Shown here piece by piece: positions 96-11,211 of a stretch of 11,566 nucleotides of DNA. The position numbers and the translations under genes were made by a program. The notes below the pieces were generated by a model. The model was not told the DNA's origin. It saw only the letters and a list, made by a program, of their open reading frames with translations, and ran no database searches. Source of the stretch: Micrococcales bacterium (GTDB lineage: Bacteria; Actinomycetota; Actinomycetes; Actinomycetales; Dermatophilaceae); NCBI GenBank assembly GCA_030537915.1, contig JAUNUZ010000036.1, positions 1-11,566 on the forward strand, in the 5' to 3' direction. Position 1 is the stretch's first letter. Every line of letters begins with the position of its first letter.

Positions 96-671
96 GTGAT
101 TCCCTCGACGGGCAAGGGCGAGCAGCGACGCCGGGATATCACCGACGCTGCAGCAGCGTTGTTGCTGGAATCGGGACCGACCGCGGTCTCGCATCGTGCC
201 GTGGCCCGGCGTGCGGGCTGTTCACTCTCGGCGACGACATATTACTTCAAGGGGCTGGATGACCTCCTCCAGGCGGCGGGTGAACACAACATCGCGCGCT
301 GGGCCCAGCGCGCCGAGCAGGTGGCCGAGCGGGTCGAGGCCGGGCCGATCCCGATGGCCCGCGCCGAGACGGTACGGTCGATTCTCGCCGCCACATTGCC
401 CAGCGATGAGGCGCTGCTCGGCCACTACCTCACCCTCCTCGCAGCGGGAGGCTCCCCACCCGTCGCGCGCGCCTATCGCACCGGACGGGCTCGCCTTAAT
501 GCGGCCATCCTGCGGGTGCTGCGCCGGGTGGGCAGCCCCCTGTCCGTAGAGCTCGTCATCGCCGTCGTCGACGGCGCCGCGGTGAGTGCCCTGAGCGAGG
601 GGCGAGACGTGTGGACGACGGCCGAACGGGCGCTCACCCAGCTCCAGGAGGCCAGTGCCCCGACCACCTGA
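96..671 (+). CDS. TetR-family transcriptional regulator
   Basis: A 191-residue protein of usual TetR length. The N-terminal region (about residues 9-55) has the TetR DNA-binding pattern: a first helix with RRRDITDAAAALLLESG, then the helix-turn-helix AVARRAGCSLSATTYYFKGLDDLL. The YYF followed by an acidic/leucine segment is the family's typical end of the recognition helix region. The rest is an all-helical ligand-binding and dimerisation domain whose ligand cannot be read from sequence. The start is GTG at 96, preceded by a strong AAGGAGG (85-91) with a 4-nt spacer. It points toward the leftward block and ends 51 nt from the stop of the last permease, so it is convergent with the block. It may control the guanidino/arginine genes, but its distance from the candidate arcA promoter makes this only a possibility. 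Confidence 0.88.
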   Translation: MIPSTGKGEQRRRDITDAAAALLLESGPTAVSHRAVARRAGCSLSATTYYFKGLDDLLQAAGEHNIARWAQRAEQVAERVEAGPIPMARAETVRSILAATLPSDEALLGHYLTLLAAGGSPPVARAYRTGRARLNAAILRVLRRVGSPLSVELVIAVVDGAAVSALSEGRDVWTTAERALTQLQEASAPTT

Positions 672-672
672 G

Positions 673-725
673 TGATCGGGGTACCGGTTGGTGCATCTGT
701 CTTAGCCGTCGGCCCAAGCCGATCA
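673..725. terminator. Possible bidirectional terminator between convergent genes
   Basis: The 51-nt gap between the regulator and the permease contains TCGGC (709-713) and GCCGA (718-722) around a 4-nt loop. There is also a wider pair, TGATCGG (673-679) with CCGATCA (719-725), which would compete with it. The location between two convergent stop codons suits a shared terminator. The short hairpin is weak and there is no clean U-tract on either strand, so the call rests mainly on position. Confidence 0.3.
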
Positions 726-1790
726 GAGACGTCCGCCGATCTCAGCGCTGGTCACAGCTTCGGATCCGCCGTCGTCACCCTTCGGCAGTTCAGGGGCCTC
801 CTCGCGCATTGAGAACGCCGGGGCCATGCCGCCGACGACGATGAGCAAGCCGCCGAGTAGGCCGATCGCTGTCAACGACTCGCCGAAGATGAGGATTCCC
901 AGGATGAGTGCGACGACCGTCTCCCAATAGGACACGCACGACAGCTCCACGGCCTTCAGGTGCTTGCCGGCGACAACGAGGAAGCCGATGGCGAAGAATC
1001 CACAGAACAAGAACAGTGCGGCGGCCCACAACCAGTTAGTCGGCGTCATGACCCGAATCGGGTTGGTGTCGTCGAGGAACCGCAAGCGGAAACCCATGAC
1101 GACGAGGGCTCCGATGGCGCCGAAGATGAAGTTCCAGAATCCACGCACCTCGGAGTCTATATCGCCGCGATAGCGGTAGAAGAAGAGCGCCAGCCCGTAG
1201 AAGACACCCGAAGACAACCCGAAGATGTCACCGATCGTCTTGTTGGGGAACTCCGGATCTTGGCCCAATTTGAGACCGAATGAGATGCCCTCCCCGGAGG
1301 TGTAGTTGATGATCCCGATCGTCATGAGCATGCCGACGAACACCAGAGACAGGAAGAATCCGTTGCGAGCTGAGATCTTCTCGCGGAGGAAGATCCAGGC
1401 GAGGATCGCCGAGAACAACGGCCCGGTGTAGATGAGGAAGACGGCGTTGGCGATCGACGTCATGAGCGTCGACGACACATAAAGTGCGAGCGATGTGCCG
1501 ATGCACACGCCGCCGGCGACGACGGTGAACGAAATTCGCGTGGTGCGCAGTGCTGCCAACTTCTTCACCGCAAGGATGATGAGCACCATGCCCACCGCCC
1601 CGGTGGTCATGCGTCCGAAGGCGAGGAAGTCCCCGATGATGTACTTGGTGTCGGTGGAGGGGTCGATTGGGGTTGAGAAACGGCCGAGTGTGCCGACGAA
1701 TCCCATGCCGGTCGCGGACAGGACCATGGCGATGAAACCAAGCTTCTTGTTCATCACGAACTGTCCCGCATCCGCCAGTGTGGCGGTCAT
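723..1790 (-). CDS. EamA/DMT-superfamily permease, copy 1
   Basis: A 355-residue integral membrane protein. Hydrophobic stretches suggest about ten membrane helices in two EamA-like halves, the usual design of drug/metabolite transporter superfamily carriers, many of which export amino acids or metabolites. Conserved patches include FLIYTGPLFSAILAWIFLREK at the end of the first half and IGIINYTSGEG in the linker, then a second half with SYWETVVALILGILIFGES. The C-terminal tail of about 35 residues is hydrophilic and acidic. The start ATG at 1790 follows TTAGGAG with a 7-nt spacer. It is the last gene of the leftward block, 193 nt after amidinotransferase copy 1, and is clearly homologous to the permease at 5640-6614. 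The substrate is unknown; a guanidino compound, sarcosine, glycine or ornithine would fit the neighbours, but this is inference. Confidence 0.88.
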   Translation of the reverse strand: MTATLADAGQFVMNKKLGFIAMVLSATGMGFVGTLGRFSTPIDPSTDTKYIIGDFLAFGRMTTGAVGMVLIILAVKKLAALRTTRISFTVVAGGVCIGTSLALYVSSTLMTSIANAVFLIYTGPLFSAILAWIFLREKISARNGFFLSLVFVGMLMTIGIINYTSGEGISFGLKLGQDPEFPNKTIGDIFGLSSGVFYGLALFFYRYRGDIDSEVRGFWNFIFGAIGALVVMGFRLRFLDDTNPIRVMTPTNWLWAAALFLFCGFFAIGFLVVAGKHLKAVELSCVSYWETVVALILGILIFGESLTAIGLLGGLLIVVGGMAPAFSMREEAPELPKGDDGGSEAVTSAEIGGRL

Positions 1791-1983
1791 GTCTTTTCTC
1801 CTAAATCGGGAGGAATGGATATCTTGCTGCCGCGCGGGAGTCGATCGTTCGCGGATGGCGCTAGCGCAGCTATGTCGCTGCGACCGGTGCTCTCACCGCC
1901 AGGGCGGCGGCGAGGGTCGTTCGCGGCGGGGGCAACAAGCCCCGGTGGTGTGGCACCGGTTAGACCGGTGCCACACCGTGGTC
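1791..1983. other. 193-nt intergenic leader of permease copy 1
   Basis: No coding frame is supported here. Reading leftward, it begins with a strong hairpin (1947-1977). It then contains a small palindrome at 1896-1907, a hairpin CGCAGC/GCTGCG (1865-1882), the 10-bp palindrome GCGCTAGCGC (1858-1867), and the direct repeat TCGTTCGCGG at 1845-1854 and 1917-1926. It ends with the permease ribosome binding site. I could not identify a convincing promoter. The structure-rich leader suggests that the last gene has some independent control. Confidence 0.5.
1947..1977 (-). terminator. Strong hairpin just after amidinotransferase copy 1
   Basis: A perfect 14-bp stem: GGTGTGGCACCGGT (1947-1960) and ACCGGTGCCACACC (1964-1977), with a 3-nt loop. 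It begins 6 nt after the amidinotransferase stop codon. No U-tract follows, so it resembles the U-less hairpin terminators proposed for actinobacteria. It could also be a partial terminator, or a 3'-end stabiliser that lowers permease expression relative to the amidinotransferase. Confidence 0.7.
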
Positions 1984-3111
1984 TCAGACGAGCGTGGGGT
2001 CTTCAACCTGGTTGGAGAAGTAGTCCTCGCAGCCGCCCTCGCGGTAGACGTCGGCGGTCGCGCAGTGCATGCCGCCACCGAAGGCGTAAGCATCACGCAG
2101 CGGCACCGGGATGACGTTCATCCCGAGCTTGTCCATCTGCTCCATCTGGTGCACCTCGGATGCCTCGACGCAGACCGTCTTGTGGTCCACGACCAAGCAG
2201 TTCATCGACAGCCAGACCGAGGAGTAGCACAGCGGCGGGGGCTCGGTGTGAGCCGGCTGAGCCGCGTCCACGATCTGCCAGTCGTTCGCCTCGAAGATCT
2301 TGCGCTGTTCCTCGGGAAGGCGACGGTGCGGGTTGTTGATGATCAGACCCGGCCGCAGCGGCACGAACGTCGCGTCGATGTGGATCGGGTAGGGGTCGCC
2401 CGGGAAGTTCACCGCGTGCACCCGCAGGTCGGGGTAGTACCGCTTGAACCACTCCATAGCCGACCGGTTCGTGGTCAGACCGTGCTGGATGAACAGGTCC
2501 TTGCCGACACGCATGACATCCGCCGCGTCCCACATGGGCTCGAACTCAGTCGTGACGAAGTCCTTGTTCGCGGTCCGCTCCAGGCGGTCCTCGAGCGAGA
2601 TCTGCTCGTCGTAGTAGTTGTGCTTGAACGACTGATCCGTCAGCCGCGGGCGAGGCGCCTGGCTCCACTTGAACTTCGGGTCGTTCTCGAAGTACTCCTG
2701 CATGAGCGGCCAGTAGGCCAGGTACTCGAAGTAACGGCAACGGAACGCGTTAGCCGAAGCCATGATCTCGTTACCGACGGTGAGCAGAATGTCGCGAGGC
2801 GGCATACAGGTCATCATCGCATCGGTGCGGAAATCCGGCGTCATGACCGGGGCGTTCCACTGCAGCGGCGTCGGCCGGTCCACGCGGATGCCGAGCCCCT
2901 CCAGGGTCTTGGCGTAGTTATCGAGCTGCTCATTCGCAACCTCGACAGTCGCCGTCGGGCGGGGACCCCACATGCCGCGCATCTCAGAGTCAACCGGCAC
3001 CTTCTCAGAGGTAGCGGGCTCCTCCGGCGGAATAACACTGTTATCCGCACGGCCTACAATAACGTGCTTGAGCGGGTCGAAGTCATTCCATGAATTAACG
3101 GTCACCGACAT
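1984..3111 (-). CDS. AGAT-family L-arginine amidinotransferase, copy 1
   Basis: A 375-residue enzyme of the glycine/inosamine-phosphate amidinotransferase family (pentein fold), which transfers the amidino group of arginine to an amine, or the reverse. The N-terminal SWNDFDPLKHVIVGRAD is the family's opening strand motif. The catalytic triad is visible: Asp195/Asp198 in EPMWDAADVMR, His244 in PIHIDATF, and Cys350 in GGGMHCATADV. Arg263 and Ser297/298 match positions that bind the arginine carboxylate in human AGAT. Tyr241 and Ile243 stand where human AGAT has Asn300 and Met302, so the acceptor may not be glycine. The frame stays open upstream into the BCCT gene, but ATG 3111 is chosen because GAAGGAG lies 5 nt before it, 28 nt after the BCCT stop. 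Its nucleotide sequence matches the copy at 6788-7915 exactly. The likely partner amine here is ornithine/sarcosine or glycine (inference). Confidence 0.93.
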   Translation of the reverse strand: MSVTVNSWNDFDPLKHVIVGRADNSVIPPEEPATSEKVPVDSEMRGMWGPRPTATVEVANEQLDNYAKTLEGLGIRVDRPTPLQWNAPVMTPDFRTDAMMTCMPPRDILLTVGNEIMASANAFRCRYFEYLAYWPLMQEYFENDPKFKWSQAPRPRLTDQSFKHNYYDEQISLEDRLERTANKDFVTTEFEPMWDAADVMRVGKDLFIQHGLTTNRSAMEWFKRYYPDLRVHAVNFPGDPYPIHIDATFVPLRPGLIINNPHRRLPEEQRKIFEANDWQIVDAAQPAHTEPPPLCYSSVWLSMNCLVVDHKTVCVEASEVHQMEQMDKLGMNVIPVPLRDAYAFGGGMHCATADVYREGGCEDYFSNQVEDPTLV

Positions 3112-3139
3112 GTGCACTCCTTCGTGTTGGTGTTGCTGG

Positions 3140-4810
3140 TTAGTCAGTAAGTTCTTGGGATAAGCCATCCTGTGCTCGTTCGAGGCTGGCCCAATGCTCG
3201 TCGTTGGCCACGAAGGCCTCAACGTCCGACGTCCTGCGCCATGTGTTCCACACCATCAAGACCACCACGACCGTGTATGGAAGCGCGCCCAGAATCGTCC
3301 CGGTCTGTACCGTCGAGACGACGCTCTCGCCACCGATCGTCAGCAGCAGGAAAGCGATCAGTGCAATGCCGATGACCAGTGTCGACCGGAAGATCTTGGA
3401 CGGGCGCGAGGCAGACTCGACGAAGCCGGCCAAGGCGTGAACGCCCGAGTCCAGAGACGTAACGTAATACGTCCCGACAAGCACCGTTGCGACAAGCAGC
3501 AGCGCGACGGAAACCGCTCCCAGCGGGATCTCGCGGAGCATCACGAACAACCCTCGCGACGTTTCTGCGTTGACCGCGGTAGTGATCACGCCACCCGTCT
3601 TCTCGTCGTAGTGCAAGGCCGCGCCACCCACGATGGCAATCCACACGACCACGACCAACGAGGGAAGCCCCAGGACGCCGATCACGAATTCGCGGACGGT
3701 CCGGCCACGTGAGATGCGCGCCACGAACGAGCCCACGAATGTCGAGAAGGCCCACGTCCATGCCCAGATGAAGACCGTCCACCAGCCATTCCAGCTGTCG
3801 GTCCAGCTTTCGATCCCGGCCGCGGAATTGCTCGCGTCGGTCCAGAGCCCCATCCACCACAGATTGAAGCCGTACTGTCCAAGGGTTTGCGGCAATACCG
3901 ACAGGACGTAGAGCGTCGGACCGAAGACCAGCACCCCCACAAGGAGTACGCCGCTCAGGGTGGAGTTGATTTCCGAGATCCGCTTCATCCCGGCATCGAT
4001 CCCGATGTAGACGCTGACCGCTCCCACCAAGCCGATGGCCACGATGACGGAGGTCCACACGACTTTTCCGGTGGGGAAGCCGAAGATCTCGGACAGCCCC
4101 GAACTCAGCTGCATCGCAGCGAACGCGAACGAGGTCGCCAGTCCGAAGACCGTCGCCAGGATGACCACGATTTCCACAACCAGGCCGGCTCCCCGCCGTG
4201 CCCGGGGTGGGAACACTTCAACGACGGCGTCCCGGAAGGTCATGGGTGCCCTGCGGTTGTGGAAGGACAGCGCGAGGCAGAGTGCGACCGTGCCGTAGAT
4301 CGCCCAGCCGTGCACGCCCCAGTGGAAGAAGCCCCAGATGAGAGCACCGTCCGCGGCGTCGGTCCCGACAACTGACGCGAGCGGGTTGTCCGACTTGACC
4401 ATGATGGGTTCGGCCACCGACCAGAAGATCAGGCCGACTCCCTGCCCGCACGCGAAGAGCATCGAGTACCAGGCAAAACGGCTGTACTGCGGCCGAGCGT
4501 CTGGGCCCCCGAGCACGATCCGGCCGCGCCGCCCGAAGGCCATCGAGAGCACAAAGAACAGCGCTGCGGATGCCAGGATCACGAAATACCAGGTGAAGTA
4601 CTGGGTCACGAAGGTGCGGAAGGTACCGATTCCGGATGCGGCCGCATCTGCGTTCGCGACCGCAAAGATCACGACCGCACCGATCAGCACCAGGCTGACC
4701 GCCTTGATGATGGAGTCGTCCCTGCTGCGGTGGGTGTTCAGTTCCGGTACCCCGGTCACCATCGCGGCGACCTGGCCCTCATCGTTGCCACTGCTAGTGG
4801 AATTTTCCAT
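3140..4810 (-). CDS. BCCT-family transporter, candidate creatinine/creatine/guanidino-compound importer
   Basis: A 556-residue membrane protein of the betaine/carnitine/choline transporter family, with about 12 hydrophobic segments. The first starts near residue 35, after a polar tail. Family landmarks are GQGVGLIFWSVAEPI (122-136, the glycine-rich unwound helix), HWGVHGWAIYG (163-173) and WAWTWAFSTFVGSFVARISRGR (349-370). Against BetP, the aromatic-box residues Trp189, Trp194 and Tyr197 are kept (Trp164, Trp169, Tyr172). Trp374 is replaced by Thr352, and Trp377 by Phe355, so a trimethylammonium substrate is less likely. The start is ATG 4810, 8 nt after the creatininase stop, with GAGGG upstream; an in-frame start 36 codons earlier would lie inside creatininase. 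Its place between creatininase and an amidinotransferase suggests a zwitterionic or guanidino substrate, which is inference. Glycine betaine or carnitine uptake remains the alternative. Confidence 0.92.
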   Translation of the reverse strand: MENSTSSGNDEGQVAAMVTGVPELNTHRSRDDSIIKAVSLVLIGAVVIFAVANADAAASGIGTFRTFVTQYFTWYFVILASAALFFVLSMAFGRRGRIVLGGPDARPQYSRFAWYSMLFACGQGVGLIFWSVAEPIMVKSDNPLASVVGTDAADGALIWGFFHWGVHGWAIYGTVALCLALSFHNRRAPMTFRDAVVEVFPPRARRGAGLVVEIVVILATVFGLATSFAFAAMQLSSGLSEIFGFPTGKVVWTSVIVAIGLVGAVSVYIGIDAGMKRISEINSTLSGVLLVGVLVFGPTLYVLSVLPQTLGQYGFNLWWMGLWTDASNSAAGIESWTDSWNGWWTVFIWAWTWAFSTFVGSFVARISRGRTVREFVIGVLGLPSLVVVVWIAIVGGAALHYDEKTGGVITTAVNAETSRGLFVMLREIPLGAVSVALLLVATVLVGTYYVTSLDSGVHALAGFVESASRPSKIFRSTLVIGIALIAFLLLTIGGESVVSTVQTGTILGALPYTVVVVLMVWNTWRRTSDVEAFVANDEHWASLERAQDGLSQELTD

Positions 4811-4818
4811 CGCCGCCC

Positions 4819-5589
4819 TCAGAACCGGCTGGAGATGGCATCGACCATCCCGGCCATTATCGACTCGGCCAGGATCTGGCCCTTCTGTGCGGTTGACACC
4901 TTCCCGGAGGACAGGCAACCGGATTCCGGCGTGAGTGATGCATCAGCCGGTAGAAGATCATACAGCGGCAATTCGGCCGCGGCATGATCGATGAGCCTGT
5001 CCATCCAGACCAGCTCGGGGAAGTACTCGAGCATGAGCGAGGTCTCCATGACACCGCCGTGCTCCACGTCCCAGCCGGGGAAACCATCGGGATAGAGCCT
5101 GGCGATGACCTGCGGTGTGACGAAATCCCAATAGGACAACATCATCACCTGGGAAGCGCCCTGGCTCGATCCCGCAAGGTCGCGAAGTGCGAGGTCGACG
5201 CCCTCATAGATGAACTGGTAGTTCTCATAGTGCCCGTTGACGAACACCACCTTCTTCACACCGTGGCGTGACAGCTCGCGAACCAGTGTGCGGCAGACGC
5301 CGACGACGGTATCCGCGTCGAAGCCGAATGAACCCACGATGTGGTTGCCGCCGCCGGAGCGCTGCTGGGACTTGTACCCGACACTCACGGCGGGCCCGAC
5401 CAACGCGTCAATCCGCGCAGCCGTCAACTCGGCAATCTTCGTCGATAACATCGTGTCGACTCCTAGCGGCATGTGCGCACCGTGCTGCTCAACCGAGCCG
5501 ACGGGGACCAGCATTACTGAATCGCCACTCTTGATCGATTCACGATAAGTAAATGCGTCCATGCGCGTGATGTTCACTTCGCGAGTCAT
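4819..5589 (-). CDS. crnA: Creatininase (creatinine amidohydrolase)
   Basis: A 256-residue cytosolic metal-dependent hydrolase that interconverts creatinine and creatine by opening or closing the lactam ring. Residues matching the metal ligands of Pseudomonas creatininase fall at the same numbers: Glu34 and His36 in SVEQHGAHM, Asp45 in LGVDT, His120 and Glu122 in NGHYEN. Ser78 and Trp154 (SYWDF) also match, and GWDVEHGGVMETSLM (172-186) carries Trp173, His177 and Glu182. Long stretches such as GYKSQQRSGGGNH and LYPDGFPGWDVEHGG resemble true creatininases rather than the distant mycofactocin MftE branch of the superfamily. The start ATG 5589 follows GGAAGGAG with a 6-nt spacer. It lies 50 nt after the upstream permease and 8 nt before the BCCT gene, so it is probably co-transcribed. 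No creatinase (creatine to sarcosine plus urea) accompanies it here, which leaves the amidinotransferase as the candidate next step. Confidence 0.92.
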   Translation of the reverse strand: MTREVNITRMDAFTYRESIKSGDSVMLVPVGSVEQHGAHMPLGVDTMLSTKIAELTAARIDALVGPAVSVGYKSQQRSGGGNHIVGSFGFDADTVVGVCRTLVRELSRHGVKKVVFVNGHYENYQFIYEGVDLALRDLAGSSQGASQVMMLSYWDFVTPQVIARLYPDGFPGWDVEHGGVMETSLMLEYFPELVWMDRLIDHAAAELPLYDLLPADASLTPESGCLSSGKVSTAQKGQILAESIMAGMVDAISSRF

Positions 5590-5639
5590 TACCAGCTCCT
5601 TCCCTTACCTTGAGGTCTTGACGCCAGTACTATCCGTTC

Positions 5640-6614
5640 CTAACGCTGCGCAACCAAACCTTCCGTCAGGGGATCCTCCGCAGTTGCGATACCCGCCGGC
5701 CGCGTCTTCCTTGTCGAGAACAGGATCTGCGCAAGGCCGCCGAAGATGATCAGGGCGCCACCGAGCATCTGCATGCCGGTGATGCCCTCGCTGAACAGGA
5801 CGATTCCGAGAATCGTCGCCATGATGGTCTCTTGGTAAGAGATGGTCGCCAGCTCACCCGCCAACAGGATCTTGGACGCGACCGTCAGGAAGTAGAACGC
5901 CGCTGCGCCTGTGACGAAGGCGGCGATCACCAGCACGATCCAACCGCGAGCGGTCATCCCACTCAGATCCGGTCGGATCGCGATCACCAGGATGCCCAGG
6001 GTGATGACGGCGAAGATGAAGTTCGTGTGGGCGCGCAGATCGGAATCGACATCGGTCCGATAGCGACTGATGAAGAGGAAGAGCCCGTAGGCCACACCCG
6101 AAGCCAGGGCCACCATGTTGCCTGCGAAGTACTGCGGGTCCAGATCAAGCGAAACAGAGAGGCCCTCGCCCGAGGCGTAGTTGATGATGCCGATGATGAG
6201 CAAGCAGCCAACGAAGACGGAACTGAGTGAGAACGCCGTCACCTTTGTGAACGGCTCCTTCAGGAAAATGCTCGCGAGGATAGTGGAGTAGATCGGCCCC
6301 GTGTAGATGAGAAAGGCTGCGTTGGCAAGCGTCGTCATCTGCGTGGACATCACATACAGACCGGAGAGCAGGCCCAAGAAGACACCGGAGAAGATAATCG
6401 CCGGCGTCATCCTGAATCCCTTGAATTTTACATACTTATGCCCCGCCACGAAGATCAGGGTCATCAGAATGAGCCCGGCGAGGTTCCGGCAGAACGAGAT
6501 GAAGATTCCCGGAGCCTCAATGTAGCGGGCGAAAGCGCCTATCCCGCCCATGAGGCTCGAAGACAGGAACATCGTGGCGAAGCCGATAAGCTTCTGCCGA
6601 CTTGCAGCGTGCAT
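5640..6614 (-). CDS. EamA/DMT-superfamily permease, copy 2
   Basis: A 324-residue integral membrane protein with about ten predicted helices in two EamA-like halves. Shared signatures with the permease at 723-1790 include FLIYTGP, a SVFVG segment, IGIINYASGEG and SYQETIMATILGIVLFSEG. The two are clearly paralogous but only moderately similar (I estimate about 35-40 percent identity by eye). The start is ATG 6614 (MHAASRQKL), with GGAG 9 nt upstream; the longer open frame upstream is non-hydrophobic and runs toward the terminator hairpin, so it was not used. It lies 173 nt after amidinotransferase copy 2 and 50 nt before creatininase. DMT carriers often export amino acids and related metabolites, so export of the reaction product (sarcosine, glycine or ornithine) or uptake of a guanidino compound is possible. 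The substrate cannot be read from the sequence. Confidence 0.88.
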   Translation of the reverse strand: MHAASRQKLIGFATMFLSSSLMGGIGAFARYIEAPGIFISFCRNLAGLILMTLIFVAGHKYVKFKGFRMTPAIIFSGVFLGLLSGLYVMSTQMTTLANAAFLIYTGPIYSTILASIFLKEPFTKVTAFSLSSVFVGCLLIIGIINYASGEGLSVSLDLDPQYFAGNMVALASGVAYGLFLFISRYRTDVDSDLRAHTNFIFAVITLGILVIAIRPDLSGMTARGWIVLVIAAFVTGAAAFYFLTVASKILLAGELATISYQETIMATILGIVLFSEGITGMQMLGGALIIFGGLAQILFSTRKTRPAGIATAEDPLTEGLVAQR

Positions 6615-6787
6615 TTGTGTCCGCTCCTTAGCGGGGTACCGCGGGCAACCAATCCGTCCATGCAGGCCATGCACGTCGATCGAAGAAATTGCCGGCCGAT
6701 AACGGTTGGTTGACGTTCTTCGTGTGTTCGGTGGAACGGGGTTCCCCCGTGGGGGTGTGCACCGCACACCCCCACCGGGAAACTGGA
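6615..6787. other. 173-nt intergenic region between amidinotransferase copy 2 and permease copy 2
   Basis: No coding frame is supported. Reading leftward it holds the strong hairpin at 6749-6775, a smaller overlapping hairpin at 6736-6750, a little inverted repeat GCGG/CCGC at 6631-6642, and the permease ribosome binding site. By eye it shows no similarity to the equivalent 193-nt gap after copy 1, although both gaps begin with a strong hairpin. Confidence 0.5.
6736..6775 (-). terminator. Tandem overlapping hairpins after amidinotransferase copy 2
   Basis: GTGGGGGTGTGC (6749-6760) and GCACACCCCCAC (6764-6775) make a perfect 12-bp stem with a 3-nt loop, extendable through a one-base bulge (CCC 6746-6748 with GGG 6777-6779). 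It begins 12 nt after the stop codon. A second stem, ACGGGG (6736-6741) with CCCCGT (6745-6750), overlaps the first by two bases, so the two cannot both form in full. No U-tract follows. It is probably a terminator or attenuator between the amidinotransferase and the permease. Confidence 0.68.
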
Positions 6788-7915
6788 TCAGACGAGCGTG
6801 GGGTCTTCAACCTGGTTGGAGAAGTAGTCCTCGCAGCCGCCCTCGCGGTAGACGTCGGCGGTCGCGCAGTGCATGCCGCCACCGAAGGCGTAAGCATCAC
6901 GCAGCGGCACCGGGATGACGTTCATCCCGAGCTTGTCCATCTGCTCCATCTGGTGCACCTCGGATGCCTCGACGCAGACCGTCTTGTGGTCCACGACCAA
7001 GCAGTTCATCGACAGCCAGACCGAGGAGTAGCACAGCGGCGGGGGCTCGGTGTGAGCCGGCTGAGCCGCGTCCACGATCTGCCAGTCGTTCGCCTCGAAG
7101 ATCTTGCGCTGTTCCTCGGGAAGGCGACGGTGCGGGTTGTTGATGATCAGACCCGGCCGCAGCGGCACGAACGTCGCGTCGATGTGGATCGGGTAGGGGT
7201 CGCCCGGGAAGTTCACCGCGTGCACCCGCAGGTCGGGGTAGTACCGCTTGAACCACTCCATAGCCGACCGGTTCGTGGTCAGACCGTGCTGGATGAACAG
7301 GTCCTTGCCGACACGCATGACATCCGCCGCGTCCCACATGGGCTCGAACTCAGTCGTGACGAAGTCCTTGTTCGCGGTCCGCTCCAGGCGGTCCTCGAGC
7401 GAGATCTGCTCGTCGTAGTAGTTGTGCTTGAACGACTGATCCGTCAGCCGCGGGCGAGGCGCCTGGCTCCACTTGAACTTCGGGTCGTTCTCGAAGTACT
7501 CCTGCATGAGCGGCCAGTAGGCCAGGTACTCGAAGTAACGGCAACGGAACGCGTTAGCCGAAGCCATGATCTCGTTACCGACGGTGAGCAGAATGTCGCG
7601 AGGCGGCATACAGGTCATCATCGCATCGGTGCGGAAATCCGGCGTCATGACCGGGGCGTTCCACTGCAGCGGCGTCGGCCGGTCCACGCGGATGCCGAGC
7701 CCCTCCAGGGTCTTGGCGTAGTTATCGAGCTGCTCATTCGCAACCTCGACAGTCGCCGTCGGGCGGGGACCCCACATGCCGCGCATCTCAGAGTCAACCG
7801 GCACCTTCTCAGAGGTAGCGGGCTCCTCCGGCGGAATAACACTGTTATCCGCACGGCCTACAATAACGTGCTTGAGCGGGTCGAAGTCATTCCATGAATT
7901 AACGGTCACCGACAT
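6788..7915 (-). CDS. AGAT-family L-arginine amidinotransferase, copy 2
   Basis: It encodes a 375-residue protein identical to that at 1984-3111, and the nucleotide sequences agree throughout, from ATG to TGA. Catalytic and binding residues are therefore the same: Asp195/198, His244, Cys350, Arg263, Ser297/298. The start is ATG 7915, preceded by AAAGGAAA with a 7-nt spacer. The frame continues open into arcC, but an upstream start would overlap it by over 200 nt and has no such site. It lies 46 nt after arcC, so it probably belongs to the arc transcript. That position is telling: arginine deiminase and this enzyme share arginine, and ornithine carbamoyltransferase releases the ornithine that the amidinotransferase would use as acceptor in the arginine-forming direction. 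The ribosome binding site differs from that of copy 1, so the two genes may be translated at different rates. Confidence 0.93.
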   Translation of the reverse strand: MSVTVNSWNDFDPLKHVIVGRADNSVIPPEEPATSEKVPVDSEMRGMWGPRPTATVEVANEQLDNYAKTLEGLGIRVDRPTPLQWNAPVMTPDFRTDAMMTCMPPRDILLTVGNEIMASANAFRCRYFEYLAYWPLMQEYFENDPKFKWSQAPRPRLTDQSFKHNYYDEQISLEDRLERTANKDFVTTEFEPMWDAADVMRVGKDLFIQHGLTTNRSAMEWFKRYYPDLRVHAVNFPGDPYPIHIDATFVPLRPGLIINNPHRRLPEEQRKIFEANDWQIVDAAQPAHTEPPPLCYSSVWLSMNCLVVDHKTVCVEASEVHQMEQMDKLGMNVIPVPLRDAYAFGGGMHCATADVYREGGCEDYFSNQVEDPTLV

Positions 7916-7937
7916 GCTTGCGTTTCCTTTCTCTGTT

Positions 7938-7955
7938 GGGGACGTCGATGTCCCC
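7938..7955 (-). other. Small hairpin between arcC and amidinotransferase copy 2
   Basis: GGGGAC (7938-7943) and GTCCCC (7950-7955) form a 6-bp stem with a 6-nt loop in the 46-nt gap after arcC. It is short and has no U-tract. It may be an RNA processing or partial termination site that sets the ratio of arc enzymes to amidinotransferase, or it may be incidental. Confidence 0.35.
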
Positions 7956-7961
7956 ATTTGT

Positions 7962-8936
7962 TCAGTCTTCGCGGACCCGAGTGTCACGTGGGGTCGGCAC
8001 GGGGATGTCACCGGGGCCGCCATAGTTGCCGCCCGGCGTGATGATCGTCCCGGCGGTGCCGGCGACGATCTTTTCGGCGTCGGCCAGCCTGCCGATGGCA
8101 GCGGTATCGCCGGTGAGTTCGACGAAGCGACTAGCCGCTTCGACCTTGGGGCCCATCGATCCGGCCGGCAGTCCGAGCCCACGCAAAGACGCGGGCGTGG
8201 CCCGGTTGATCTCGCGCTGCTCCGGGGTGCCGTAGTCGACCAGCACTGCGGGCACGTCCGTGAGGATCATGAGGAAGTCCGCATCCAGGGCCTCGGCAAG
8301 CACGCTCGCCGTGAGGTCCTTGTCGACGACGGCCTCCACGCCCTCCAGCTTGCCCTGCGCGTTGCGGACGACGGGCACTCCGCCACCACCGGCGCACACA
8401 ACGACTGCTCCGTCGTGGATGAGCGCTCGCACGAGCCGCGTTTCGATGACTCGCTGCGGGAAGGGGGACCCGACGACCCGACGGAAGTGCCCACCGTCCG
8501 CCTTCATCGTCCAGCCACGCTCGGCCGCGAAGCGGTCCGCTTCCTCCTTGGAATAGACCTCACCGATGAACTTCGTCGGGTTCTCGAAGGCCGGGTCGCC
8601 CGCGAGCACGAGAGTCTGGTTGACGATGCTGGCTACGTGCCGTCCGGGCAGGTGGTTCTGCAGGGACTGCAGCAACCAGTATCCGATCATTCCCTGGGTC
8701 TGTGCCCCGAGGGTGTCGAACGGGTACGGCTGTGACAGCTTGGGATCGTTCGCCGACTGCAGGGCGAGCACGCCGACCTGCGGCCCGTTACCGTGGGTGA
8801 GGATGATCTCGTGCTGTGCAGCCAAGGGGGCGAGCGCGGTGACCGCAGTCTCCACGTTGGCGATCTGCGTCGAGGCGTCCGGCTTCTCGCCCCGCTTGAG
8901 CAGGGCGTTGCCGCCCAGCGCGATGACGATACGCAT
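7962..8936 (-). CDS. arcC: Carbamate kinase
   Basis: A 324-residue cytosolic enzyme that uses carbamoyl phosphate and ADP to form ATP and carbamate, which breaks down to ammonia and carbon dioxide. This is the energy-yielding last step of the arginine deiminase pathway. The amino acid kinase fold is shown by MRIVIALGGNALL at the start, THGNGPQVG near residue 50, the glycine-rich CAGGGGVPV in the middle, and TDVPAVLVDYGTP later. Length is normal for the family. The ATG at 8936 is 6 nt after the arcB stop, and a GGGGAG site lies within the end of arcB, indicating tight translational linkage. The order arcA-arcB-arcC matches many bacterial arc operons. Confidence 0.96.
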   Translation of the reverse strand: MRIVIALGGNALLKRGEKPDASTQIANVETAVTALAPLAAQHEIILTHGNGPQVGVLALQSANDPKLSQPYPFDTLGAQTQGMIGYWLLQSLQNHLPGRHVASIVNQTLVLAGDPAFENPTKFIGEVYSKEEADRFAAERGWTMKADGGHFRRVVGSPFPQRVIETRLVRALIHDGAVVVCAGGGGVPVVRNAQGKLEGVEAVVDKDLTASVLAEALDADFLMILTDVPAVLVDYGTPEQREINRATPASLRGLGLPAGSMGPKVEAASRFVELTGDTAAIGRLADAEKIVAGTAGTIITPGGNYGGPGDIPVPTPRDTRVRED

Positions 8937-8942
8937 ATCTAG

Positions 8943-9947
8943 TCAGCTCCCCAAGGTGGCGACCATGACGGCCTTGATGGTGTGCATCCGGTTCTCGGCC
9001 TGGTCGAAGACGATGCTGGCCGGGGACTCGAAGACCTCGTCGGTCACCTCGAGGGCGCTCATGCCGGTCTTCTCGAAGATGTCTTTCCCGACGGCCGTGT
9101 TCGTGTCGTGGAATGCGGGCAGGCAGTGCAGGAACTTGCAGTCCGGGTTTCCGGTTGCCGCCATCATCTCCGCGTTGACCTGGTAGTCCTTCAGCGCGGC
9201 GATTCGGGCGTCCCACTTCTCCTTGGGCTCGCCCATCGAGACCCACACGTCGGTGTAAAGGAAGTCGCAGCCCTTGACACCTTCGGCGACGTCGTCCGTC
9301 ACCGTAATCCGGGCGCCGGTGGTCTTGGCGATCTCCTTCGCCTGCGCGACGATGTCGTCGGCCGTGAGCAGGTCCTTCGGACCGACCATCCGCACGTCCA
9401 TGCCGAGCATCGCGCCGCTGATGAGCGTCGAGTTGGCGACGTTGTTGCGGGCGTCTCCGAGGTAGGCCATGACGATGTCCGCGTCGGCCTTACCGCCGGC
9501 GTGCTCACGCATGGTCAACTGGTCGGCGAGCATCTGGGTCGGGTGCCAGTCGTCGGTCAAGCCGTTCCACACCGGGACGCCGGACAGTTCACCGAGCGTC
9601 TCGACGTGCTCCTGCTTGGAACCGCGGAACTCGATGCCGTCGTAGTAGCGGCCGAGCACGCGAGCGGTGTCCGCGACGGACTCCTTGTGGCCCATCTGCG
9701 AACCCGAGGGGTCCAGATAGGTCACGTGGGCGCCTTGGTCGAAGGAAGCCGTCTCGAAGGCGCATCGGGTGCGGGTCGAGGTCTTCTCGAAGATGAGCCC
9801 GATGTTCTTGCCGGCGAGGCGCTGCGTCTCCGTGCCCGCCTTCTTGCTGGCCTTGAGCTCAGCAGCGAGATCGAGCAGGCCGCGCCACTCCTCAGGGGTG
9901 AAGTCCAGCTCCTTGAGGAAGTTCCGACCGTGCAGTGCGTGGGGCAT
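8943..9947 (-). CDS. arcB: Ornithine carbamoyltransferase, catabolic role
   Basis: A 334-residue enzyme that in this setting splits citrulline with phosphate into ornithine and carbamoyl phosphate. The carbamoyl phosphate site STRTR is at 57-61, the HPTQ motif at 135-138, the ornithine-binding loop DVWVSMGE at 233-240, and the catalytic HCLP at 274-277. By sequence alone it could be an anabolic ArgF. Placement between arginine deiminase and carbamate kinase, and the length of about 334 residues, support the catabolic form. The ATG at 9947 follows GAAAGGAA with a 7-nt spacer, 43 nt after arcA. Ornithine released here could be re-amidinated by the amidinotransferases downstream, which would make ornithine a recycled carrier (inference). 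Confidence 0.96.
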
Positions 9948-9990
9948 GTACGTTCCTTTCGATGAAGAATGTCGCGGGATGTCGTAGGGA

Positions 9991-11211
9991 TCAGGCGGGG
10001 TCGCGCTGAATGGGGCAGGTCATGCAGCGGGGGCCACCCCGCCCGCGGCCGAGTTCGTTGCCGGGCACCTCGATGACCTCGATGCCCTGGTTGCGCAGGT
10101 AGTTGTTGGTTGTCGTGTTGCGTTCATAGGCGACGACGACTCCCGGCTCTAGCGCAAGCACGTTGCACGCGTCGTCCCACTGCTCGCGCTCAGCCGCGAG
10201 CGAGTCCTGCGCGGCGGTGAGGATTCGCAGATCGTCGACGCCCACGGCCTCCGCAATGGATTCGTGCATGCGGCTCGCGTCGTGGAGCTTGACGGACAAC
10301 TCCTTGGTGGTCGCACCCGGGGTGATCGTCACGGTGGGAAGCATGCCCAGGCCGGCGTACTTGGTGAACGAGTGCGGATCGACCATGGTCATGACGGTGT
10401 CGAGGTGCATGACGGCACGCGCCTTGGGCATGACGACCGCGAGGACCGTGTGCGCCGAACCGGCGTCGAAGAGCTTTTGGGCGAGTCGCTCGACGCCCTG
10501 GGCGGACGTGCGCTCGCTGAGACCGACCAATACCGCACCGTTTCCGATCACGAGGACGTCGCCACCCTCGACCGTCGCGGCGGCCTCGTCCCGACCCTCG
10601 GACCACACGTGGTGGCCACCGTCCGCGAAGCGGGGGTGCCAGCGGTAGATCGCCTCGAAGTTGATCGTCTCGCGCATCCGCGCGGTCATCCGCATCGAGT
10701 TGATCGCGACGCCGTCGTATATCCAGCACGACGTATCGCGCGTGAAGAGGTGGTTGGGCAGCGGCGGCAAGACGAAGTCGTCAGGTCCCAGGACGTCGAG
10801 GACGACCGAGTGCGGAGCCTCGACCCGTTCGAGAAGCTCGTTCTTGGTCAGGCCGGCGATGAGGGTTTGGGCCAGATCGGCGGGCGTGGCCGCGTCGACA
10901 TGGTTGCGTAGAGCGTCGATGAGGCCGATCCCGAACGACCGATCGTCGACGATTCCGTCGACGATGAAGCGCCGGGCGTCGAGATCCTCCAGCGACTCGG
11001 TCAGCAGATCGGAGAACTCAAGCACTTCGATGTCACGCGAGGTCATTGCGTCAACGAAGGCGTCGTGCTCACCTTGCGCCTTGGACAGCCACAGCACATC
11101 GTCGAAGAGCAGATCCGCCTTGTTGCCTGGCGTCAGACGGGACATCTCCTTGCCCGGTCGGTGGACCATGACGGTCCGCAGCTTTCCTACCTCGGAATCC
11201 ACCCGATACAT
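9991..11211 (-). CDS. arcA: Arginine deiminase
   Basis: A 406-residue cytosolic pentein-fold hydrolase converting arginine to citrulline and ammonia. Catalytic and substrate residues known for bacterial arginine deiminases are visible: Asp159 (FTRDTS), Glu215 (EGGDV), His269 and Asp271 ([11 protein letters not shown]), and the nucleophile Cys396 in [13 protein letters not shown]. Length is normal. The start chosen is ATG 11211 ([10 protein letters not shown]), because GAAAGGAG at 11218-11225 then has a 6-nt spacer. An in-frame TTG at 11217 would abut the ribosome binding site. It is the first gene of the leftward block, downstream of a candidate promoter with adjoining palindromes. It is homologous in fold to the amidinotransferases encoded downstream, although the sequences are far apart. 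Confidence 0.97.

Follow-up and report, generated by a model that had tools for sequence, protein, structure and literature searches.

Organization of the locus

The contig examined here (JAUNUZ010000036.1, 11,566 nucleotides; referred to as the window, which is the whole of contig C146) comes from the assembly of a Micrococcales bacterium of the Dermatophilaceae (GCA_030537915.1; 525 contigs, 83% complete). On its minus strand it carries, in this order, arcA, arcB and arcC of the arginine deiminase (ADI) pathway, a gene for an AGAT-family amidinotransferase, a gene for an EamA permease (DMT2), a creatininase gene, a gene for a BCCT carrier, a second amidinotransferase gene and a gene for a second EamA permease (DMT1); a gene for a TetR-family regulator, on the plus strand, is convergent with this block (Table 1). 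An initial annotation had tentatively assigned these genes to an ornithine-recycling pathway drawing ATP from creatinine or other guanidino compounds, and family models and coordinates bear it out in that all of the genes named are found there as open reading frames of the minus strand. The range that it gave for the pathway (4819-11211) holds arcABC, one amidinotransferase, one DMT permease and the creatininase, but omits the BCCT carrier, the second amidinotransferase and the second DMT permease, although they had been listed. Judged by its sequence, the block is quite probably an energy-conserving module for the catabolism of creatine and creatinine, and the lines of evidence that lead to this view are presented below.

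Conservation of the gene cluster

When genome contigs were scanned with the amidinotransferase, 141 relatives were confirmed. The 80 best of the 141 were retained and yielded 79 named loci, which thus represent the closest relatives only (79-89% identity) and belong, among others, to Actinomyces, Schaalia, Georgenia, Cutibacterium, Eggerthellaceae, Neisseria and Desulfosarcina. Genes were counted wherever they were called in the fetched stretches, which extend up to 10 kb to either side of the amidinotransferase gene. An MHS-type MFS carrier is encoded in 66/79 loci, an EamA/DMT permease in 65 and a TetR regulator in 43; arcC is found in 43 loci, arcB in 39 and arcA in 37, creatininase in 15 and, by tblastn, a BCCT carrier in 6. 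In 45 loci an arc gene immediately precedes that of the amidinotransferase, and the order is arcA-arcB-arcC in 30. Outside the Coriobacteriia (loci were sorted by record title, and only those with at least 4 kb upstream were counted), 35 of 41 loci have a same-strand arc gene no more than 4.5 kb away, and 28 have all three. The amidinotransferase DNA of three genomes of the same family as the window (G002, G064 and G090) is identical to that of loci from Austwickia chelonae (L022), a Humibacillus metagenome-assembled genome (MAG; L029) and a Dermatophilus MAG (L046). The co-occurrence that the initial annotation saw in a single genome is thus conserved well beyond it. Moreover, a chance gathering of unrelated genes is ruled out, because the same arrangement recurs across other genera and classes.

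Arginine deiminase is matched in all of the amidinotransferase genomes searched (49/49, drawn from 50 of the 79 loci). Eighteen of these matches lie above the strict cut-off (TIGR01078), and the window's own ADI is also narrowly under it. We also used a sample of the phylum of 296 genomes, including the genome of the window, in which ADI is matched in 113 genomes at E 0.001 and in 92 at E <1e-60. Eleven of them carry the amidinotransferase at an identity of at least 71%, three in pieces on separate contigs; eight further genomes, whose matches share 26-43% identity, were set aside because these represent different members of the family. At the stricter threshold, ADI is present in 11/11 amidinotransferase genomes versus 81/285 others (Fisher 5e-6 without the window's genome, in a test that ignores relatedness, ten of the 11 carriers belonging to one family).

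CREATININASE belongs to the module. In the same sample creatininase scores above the cut-off in 13/296 genomes, that is, in 6/11 amidinotransferase carriers (the window's genome included) versus 7/285 others (Fisher 1e-5 without the window's genome), and in five of these six it lies no more than about 2.2 kb from the amidinotransferase or from a contig-end piece of one. A DMT permease of one clade precedes creatininase in 15/15 loci, directly in 13 and with a single gene, c9, in between in two. This clade has 16 members, the window's DMT2 among them (support 100/99), from Actinomycetaceae, Dermatophilaceae, Georgenia, Eggerthellaceae and Neisseria; two more rows of the tree flagged as adjacent to creatininase are DMT1-type genes located two genes upstream of it.

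Two further features of the relatives are worth recording. c9 codes for a conserved protein of 186 residues in cassettes of Coriobacteriia, between the DMT gene and the carrier or creatininase gene (15/79 loci; for example L051, 12594-13154, and L090, 5815-6375); its best Pfam match has an E of 0.028, the PDB gave no hit at E 1 and the structure model is poor (pLDDT 53.5). In Gordonibacter and Slackia, an ABC transporter of the amino acid type, with binding protein, permease and ATPase, adjoins the module (L051, 6086-9173; L073-L075).

Possible creatine breakdown where creatinase is missing

Creatininase scores above the cut-off in 20 of 41 genomes, of which 14 had been chosen as creatininase loci, together with G000 and G476, so that the figure free of this choice is 4/25 others. 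Among the 41, just two genomes, those of Georgenia (G168) and Humibacillus (G166), have a true creatinase, with scores of 954 and 835 bits where no other match exceeds 78, and 19 of the 20 creatininase genomes, several of them drafts or MAGs, lack it. No creatinase was found at E 1e-10 in the genome of the window, in an assembly that is 83% complete, and 14/21 genomes examined, this one included, have no Creatinase_N protein at all. Creatinase-like M24 proteins do not appear to be hidden creatinases: the two compared with solved structures are nearer Xaa-Pro peptidases, and the rest reach no more than 78 bits. Since creatinase is missing in 19 of the 20, the creatine formed by creatininase would otherwise be a dead end. 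The heterotetrameric sarcosine oxidase gene soxB, the only sarcosine enzyme looked for, is above its cut-off, among 21 genomes, in Georgenia G168 and Humibacillus G166 alone, with a strong match (404 bits) below the cut-off in Desulfosarcina; this scarcity fits an export of sarcosine elsewhere.

Georgenia thermotolerans carries both routes, the module and a separate stretch with creatininase, a BCCT carrier, creatinase (567 bits to 1chm) and soxB. The operon of the module in Georgenia reads arcABC-amidinotransferase-DMT2-creatininase-NCS1 permease-argB, and argB, for acetylglutamate kinase, follows the permease gene in both creatininase operons recorded (L031, 14073-15008; L032, 14804-15736). 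In G. thermotolerans the argB of the operon is a second copy, the other one being on a different contig, which fits a need for an ornithine pool. A second, partial argB is also present in the window's genome, on contig C451.

The stretches with a true creatinase are informative about the carriers as well. The BCCT carrier gene that adjoins creatininase and creatinase in Georgenia (L118) codes for a protein 51% identical to the BCCT of the window, and in Humibacillus (L123) an MHS carrier gene stands directly before the creatinase gene (549 bits to 1chm), its product being 45-60% identical to five MHS carriers of the module. The presence of BCCT and MHS relatives beside true creatinases ties both types of carrier to creatine independently of the amidinotransferase. 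When compared with the BCCT of the window, solved BCCT carriers for trimethylamine, choline and betaine reach 214-277 bits.

An amidinotransferase with an altered lid

The two amidinotransferase copies of the window have no match among Pfam and NCBIfam models at E 0.001. The catalytic residues of the family, Asp254, His303 and Cys407 in the human numbering, are conserved in 83/83 copies from the loci; in 120 database proteins Asp and His are invariant and Cys is present in 117. Asp170, Asp305, Arg322, Ser354 and Ser355, which we take to be the arginine-site residues of the AGAT family, are each found in 83/83 copies and in 120/120 database proteins, except for Arg322 (119). In contrast, the human lid residues Asn300 and Met302 are replaced by Tyr and Ile in all 83 and all 120 proteins. 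The window enzyme thus has the residues of AGAT-family membership, but not the lid of an arginine:glycine amidinotransferase proper. The lid of this subfamily reads DPYPI(H), as compared to DPNPM in the human enzyme, DIFPS in CyrA and DMHPM in AmtA, and in CyrA changes at lid positions widened the range of substrates (PMC4887976). From these sequences, recognition of arginine and ornithine seems retained and the lid altered, as a different second substrate might need, and creatine would be that second substrate. The altered lid is in line with the caution in the initial annotation that the specificity of the enzyme would have to depart from that of mammalian AGAT.

Several members of the subfamily (among P0015-P0119; Cutibacterium acnes, Neisseria and Slackia) bear the NCBI label "serine/threonine protein kinase," which is misleading. 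A search of plasmids with the amidinotransferase gave 43 records, each below 60% identity, the best one having no annotation there.

Twin copies and their hairpins

The two copies in the window do not differ at any of 1129 bases (1984-3112 and 6788-7916), from the start to the stop codon plus one base, and their flanks are unrelated; the initial annotation had not mentioned this identity. Paired copies that are 97-100% identical in DNA, with compared flanks that are largely unrelated, occur in the window and in eight other genomes (L017; L064; L065; L072; L053/L059; L054/L066; L069/L071; L089/L090), and one pair is identical over 1149/1149 bases in a single-contig genome of 3.6 Mb. An artefact of assembly is unlikely to be the source of the identical copies, since such pairs recur in eight other genomes; sequence comparison suggests concerted evolution of the pairs, probably through gene conversion. 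Four genomes (the window's, L017, L053/L059 and L089/L090) have both the creatininase cassette and the general one with copies 97-100% identical, and in Adlercreutzia (L120) a DMT2-creatininase-MHS cassette lies in a 16-kb stretch lacking the amidinotransferase, of which there are copies elsewhere in the genome. Together, these two observations suggest that one enzyme serves both cassettes.

The stop codon of the amidinotransferase gene is followed by a strong hairpin (fold z < -2) in 70/82 copies, as compared to 5/43 after arcB, 13/43 after arcC, 29/58 after DMT1, 1/15 after DMT2 and 7/15 after creatininase. Possibly, the hairpin sets the dosage of the membrane-protein genes located downstream.

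The incomplete amidinotransferase of Raoultibacter timonensis (L119) is probably not a case of decay: before DMT2-creatininase-BCCT only its two ends are present, fused to pieces of foreign genes round a short run of N, as if the assembly or scaffold had broken at a repeat.

Table 1. Genes and hairpins of the window, with predicted roles and the matches on which the assignments rest
Feature	Position	Strand	Evidence
arcA, arginine deiminase	9991..11211	-	PF02274, 391.6 bits; NF002381, 524.3 (cut-off 414); TIGR01078, 483.2, just below cut-off of 489.1
arcB, ornithine carbamoyltransferase	8943..9947	-	TIGR00658, 411.4 bits (cut-off 280.85)
arcC, carbamate kinase, ATP-forming step	7962..8936	-	TIGR00746, 358.9 (cut-off 358.25); NF009008, 441 (cut-off 361)
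AGAT-family amidinotransferase, copy 2, DPYPIH lid	6788..7915	-	DNA identical to copy 1; catalytic Asp/His/Cys retained
Strong hairpin 3' of amidinotransferase copy 2	6741..6783	-	fold z -4.5 versus dinucleotide shuffles
DMT2, EamA permease of creatininase-linked clade; putative sarcosine exporter	5640..6614	-	PF00892; 16-row clade, support 100/99
Creatininase (creatinine to creatine)	4819..5589	-	TIGR04448, 320.7 (cut-off 235); 274 bits to solved creatininase 1q3k
BCCT carrier; putative creatine/creatinine uptake	3140..4810	-	PF02028, 432.7 bits; context
AGAT-family amidinotransferase, copy 1	1984..3111	-	281 bits to human AGAT
Strong hairpin 3' of amidinotransferase copy 1	1947..1977	-	fold z -5.3 versus dinucleotide shuffles
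DMT1, EamA permease of general cassette; putative exporter of amine product	723..1790	-	PF00892; outside creatininase-linked clade
TetR-family regulator, weakly BetI-like	96..671	+	PF00440, PF17940; BetI model 34.6 bits, far below cut-off of 201.3

Discussion

We propose that the module feeds the guanidino group of creatine and creatinine into the ADI pathway. Uptake would probably occur through the BCCT carrier, as its context suggests, and creatininase, for which the family assignment is strong, would open creatinine to creatine. The amidinotransferase would then transfer the amidino group of creatine to ornithine, giving arginine and sarcosine; guanidinoacetate, which would give glycine, is likely to be accepted as well. 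ArcA, ArcB and ArcC would convert arginine to ornithine, CO2, ammonia and one ATP, and because ornithine is regenerated by ArcABC, it would act catalytically, such that creatine use would not require an exchange of arginine for ornithine. Sarcosine would probably exit through the DMT permeases. Overall, creatine would yield sarcosine, CO2, 2 NH3 and ATP, where creatinase instead gives sarcosine and urea. The cassette that has no creatininase (amidinotransferase-DMT1-MHS) probably takes creatine directly, or else guanidinoacetate; the evidence does not separate them. The recycling of ornithine, already put forward in the initial annotation, is supported by the recurrence of the gene set, by the presence of ADI in all amidinotransferase genomes searched, by the lack of creatinase in nearly all creatininase genomes and by the relatives of the carriers beside true creatinases, the catalytic step itself being argued from homology and gene context.

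The proposed route shares with the known ADI pathway, arcABC(D), contiguous arcA, arcB and arcC genes and the formation of ATP from carbamoyl phosphate. Unlike that pathway, arginine would be supplied by the amidinotransferase from other guanidino compounds and ornithine would be recycled inside the cell. With the creatininase-creatinase-sarcosine oxidase route it has in common creatininase as the first enzyme and related BCCT and MHS carriers, but creatinase is largely missing, also from the window's genome, and ornithine would receive the amidino group, with ATP formed, in place of its release as urea. The window enzyme retains the catalytic triad and the arginine-site residues of AGAT/GATM, CyrA, AmtA and StrB1, yet it differs from the first three in its lid and from all four in its catabolic gene context. 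The component enzymes are thus of known kinds; the combination, the direction and the subfamily are new as far as our literature search reaches. That search, at the level of titles and the beginnings of abstracts, and with most subscription papers and bioRxiv outside its coverage, found no published description of the gene set or of the route, which is not proof of novelty.

Published gaps in creatine breakdown concern two organisms. Genome G476, putatively that of Eggerthella lenta DSM 2243, carries amidinotransferase-DMT2-c9-creatininase-BCCT-MHS at one place and amidinotransferase-DMT1-c9-MHS-TetR elsewhere, with identical amidinotransferase copies. Gnotobiotic mice colonized with E. lenta had less creatine and less sarcosine in the colon; its genome was reported to encode a creatininase, but genes for the subsequent steps of creatine breakdown were not found (PMC11149096). 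Tissierella creatinophila ferments creatinine anaerobically via creatine to sarcosine, and neither creatinase nor creatine reductase genes were detected in its genome; there, unlike in the route considered here, the later steps are tied to sarcosine and glycine reductase (PMC5364220). On balance, we favor the view that a widespread, undescribed route, built on the subfamily with the DPYPIH lid and on catalytic ornithine, channels the guanidino group of creatine and creatinine into the ADI pathway in Actinomycetota of the mouth, skin and gut as well as in Neisseriaceae and a sulfate reducer, and that this amidinotransferase is the missing creatine-degrading enzyme of E. lenta and possibly of Tissierella.

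Several observations weigh against the route as proposed. To our knowledge, no characterised amidinotransferase uses creatine. When two lid residues of AmtA were changed to the human ones, the specificity was not altered (PMC4887976). The drop in sarcosine alongside creatine in mice with E. lenta poorly fits a simple release of sarcosine, and the BCCT of the E. lenta type shares only 42% identity with that of the window; more generally, the identities of the BCCT and MHS carriers stand without a background of unrelated carriers for comparison. Arc genes are adjacent in only 3/23 loci of Coriobacteriia that have at least 4 kb upstream, creatininase was not seen in 64/79 fetched stretches, so that creatinine is not a general substrate, and in G360 about 44 kb separate creatininase from the amidinotransferase. 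The ADI match of Cutibacterium namnetense (G177, C1, 45394-46607) is in two pieces in different frames; the gene may be broken, or this may be a sequencing error. Lastly, the 10 proteins of the window that were scanned include no arginine/ornithine antiporter, but arcA lies 355 bases from the end of the contig and an antiporter gene may be located just beyond. One does follow the module in Austwickia chelonae (L022; TIGR03810, 630 bits against 591), which implies that external arginine may also be used there; among seven carrier-sized genes scanned near the module in other loci, this was the one antiporter, and two were amino acid permeases (L007 and L013). Some carriers of the module can thus probably also use arginine from outside.

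The strongest alternative, which we regard as unlikely, is that the donor is guanidinoacetate or another guanidino acid, not creatine, giving glycine as well as arginine for the ADI pathway, with creatininase making creatine for some other purpose, such as service as an osmolyte. Osmolytes are frequent substrates of BCCT carriers, and the 64 loci in which creatininase was not seen also count in its favor. Guanidinoacetate is a natural donor of the human AGAT and of CyrA in the reverse direction (PMC4887976), and in locus L060 the position of the DMT permease is occupied by an alanine/glycine carrier with a weak AgcS match (25.4 bits against 24), which would fit a glycine product. Nevertheless, in the module creatininase co-occurs with and adjoins the amidinotransferase far above background, it is accompanied by its own DMT clade at every creatininase locus and in the window, relatives of its carriers are found next to true creatinases as well, and the near-identity of the copies in the four two-cassette genomes suggests that a single enzyme serves both cassettes. 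Still less probable is a biosynthetic direction, in which arginine and an amine would give ornithine and a guanidino compound that leaves through the DMT permeases. Export is a frequent role of EamA permeases. The characterised relatives AGAT, CyrA, AmtA and StrB1 do work biosynthetically (PMC4887976, PMC3684758), but arcABC, directly upstream, destroys arginine, the operons include creatininase and carriers of the uptake type (BCCT, MHS, NCS1), and there is no biosynthetic partner gene among the 10 window proteins scanned. Least probable of all is that creatine is metabolised by the same route mainly for nitrogen or for acid resistance through ammonia, ATP being incidental: ADI pathways often serve pH homeostasis, but arcC, whose role in the pathway is the formation of ATP, is found in 43/79 loci.

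If the route operates as proposed, with creatine as the donor and ornithine recycled, an enzyme family known from biosynthesis would acquire a catabolic role, and host creatine and creatinine would be a source of ATP for many host-associated bacteria, with no need for creatinase and no release of urea. The amidinotransferase gene would then be a candidate for the consumption of creatine by E. lenta in the gut, and the route would bear on the bacterial loss of creatinine. Related gene sets could explain how host-associated microbes use creatine without the textbook enzyme.

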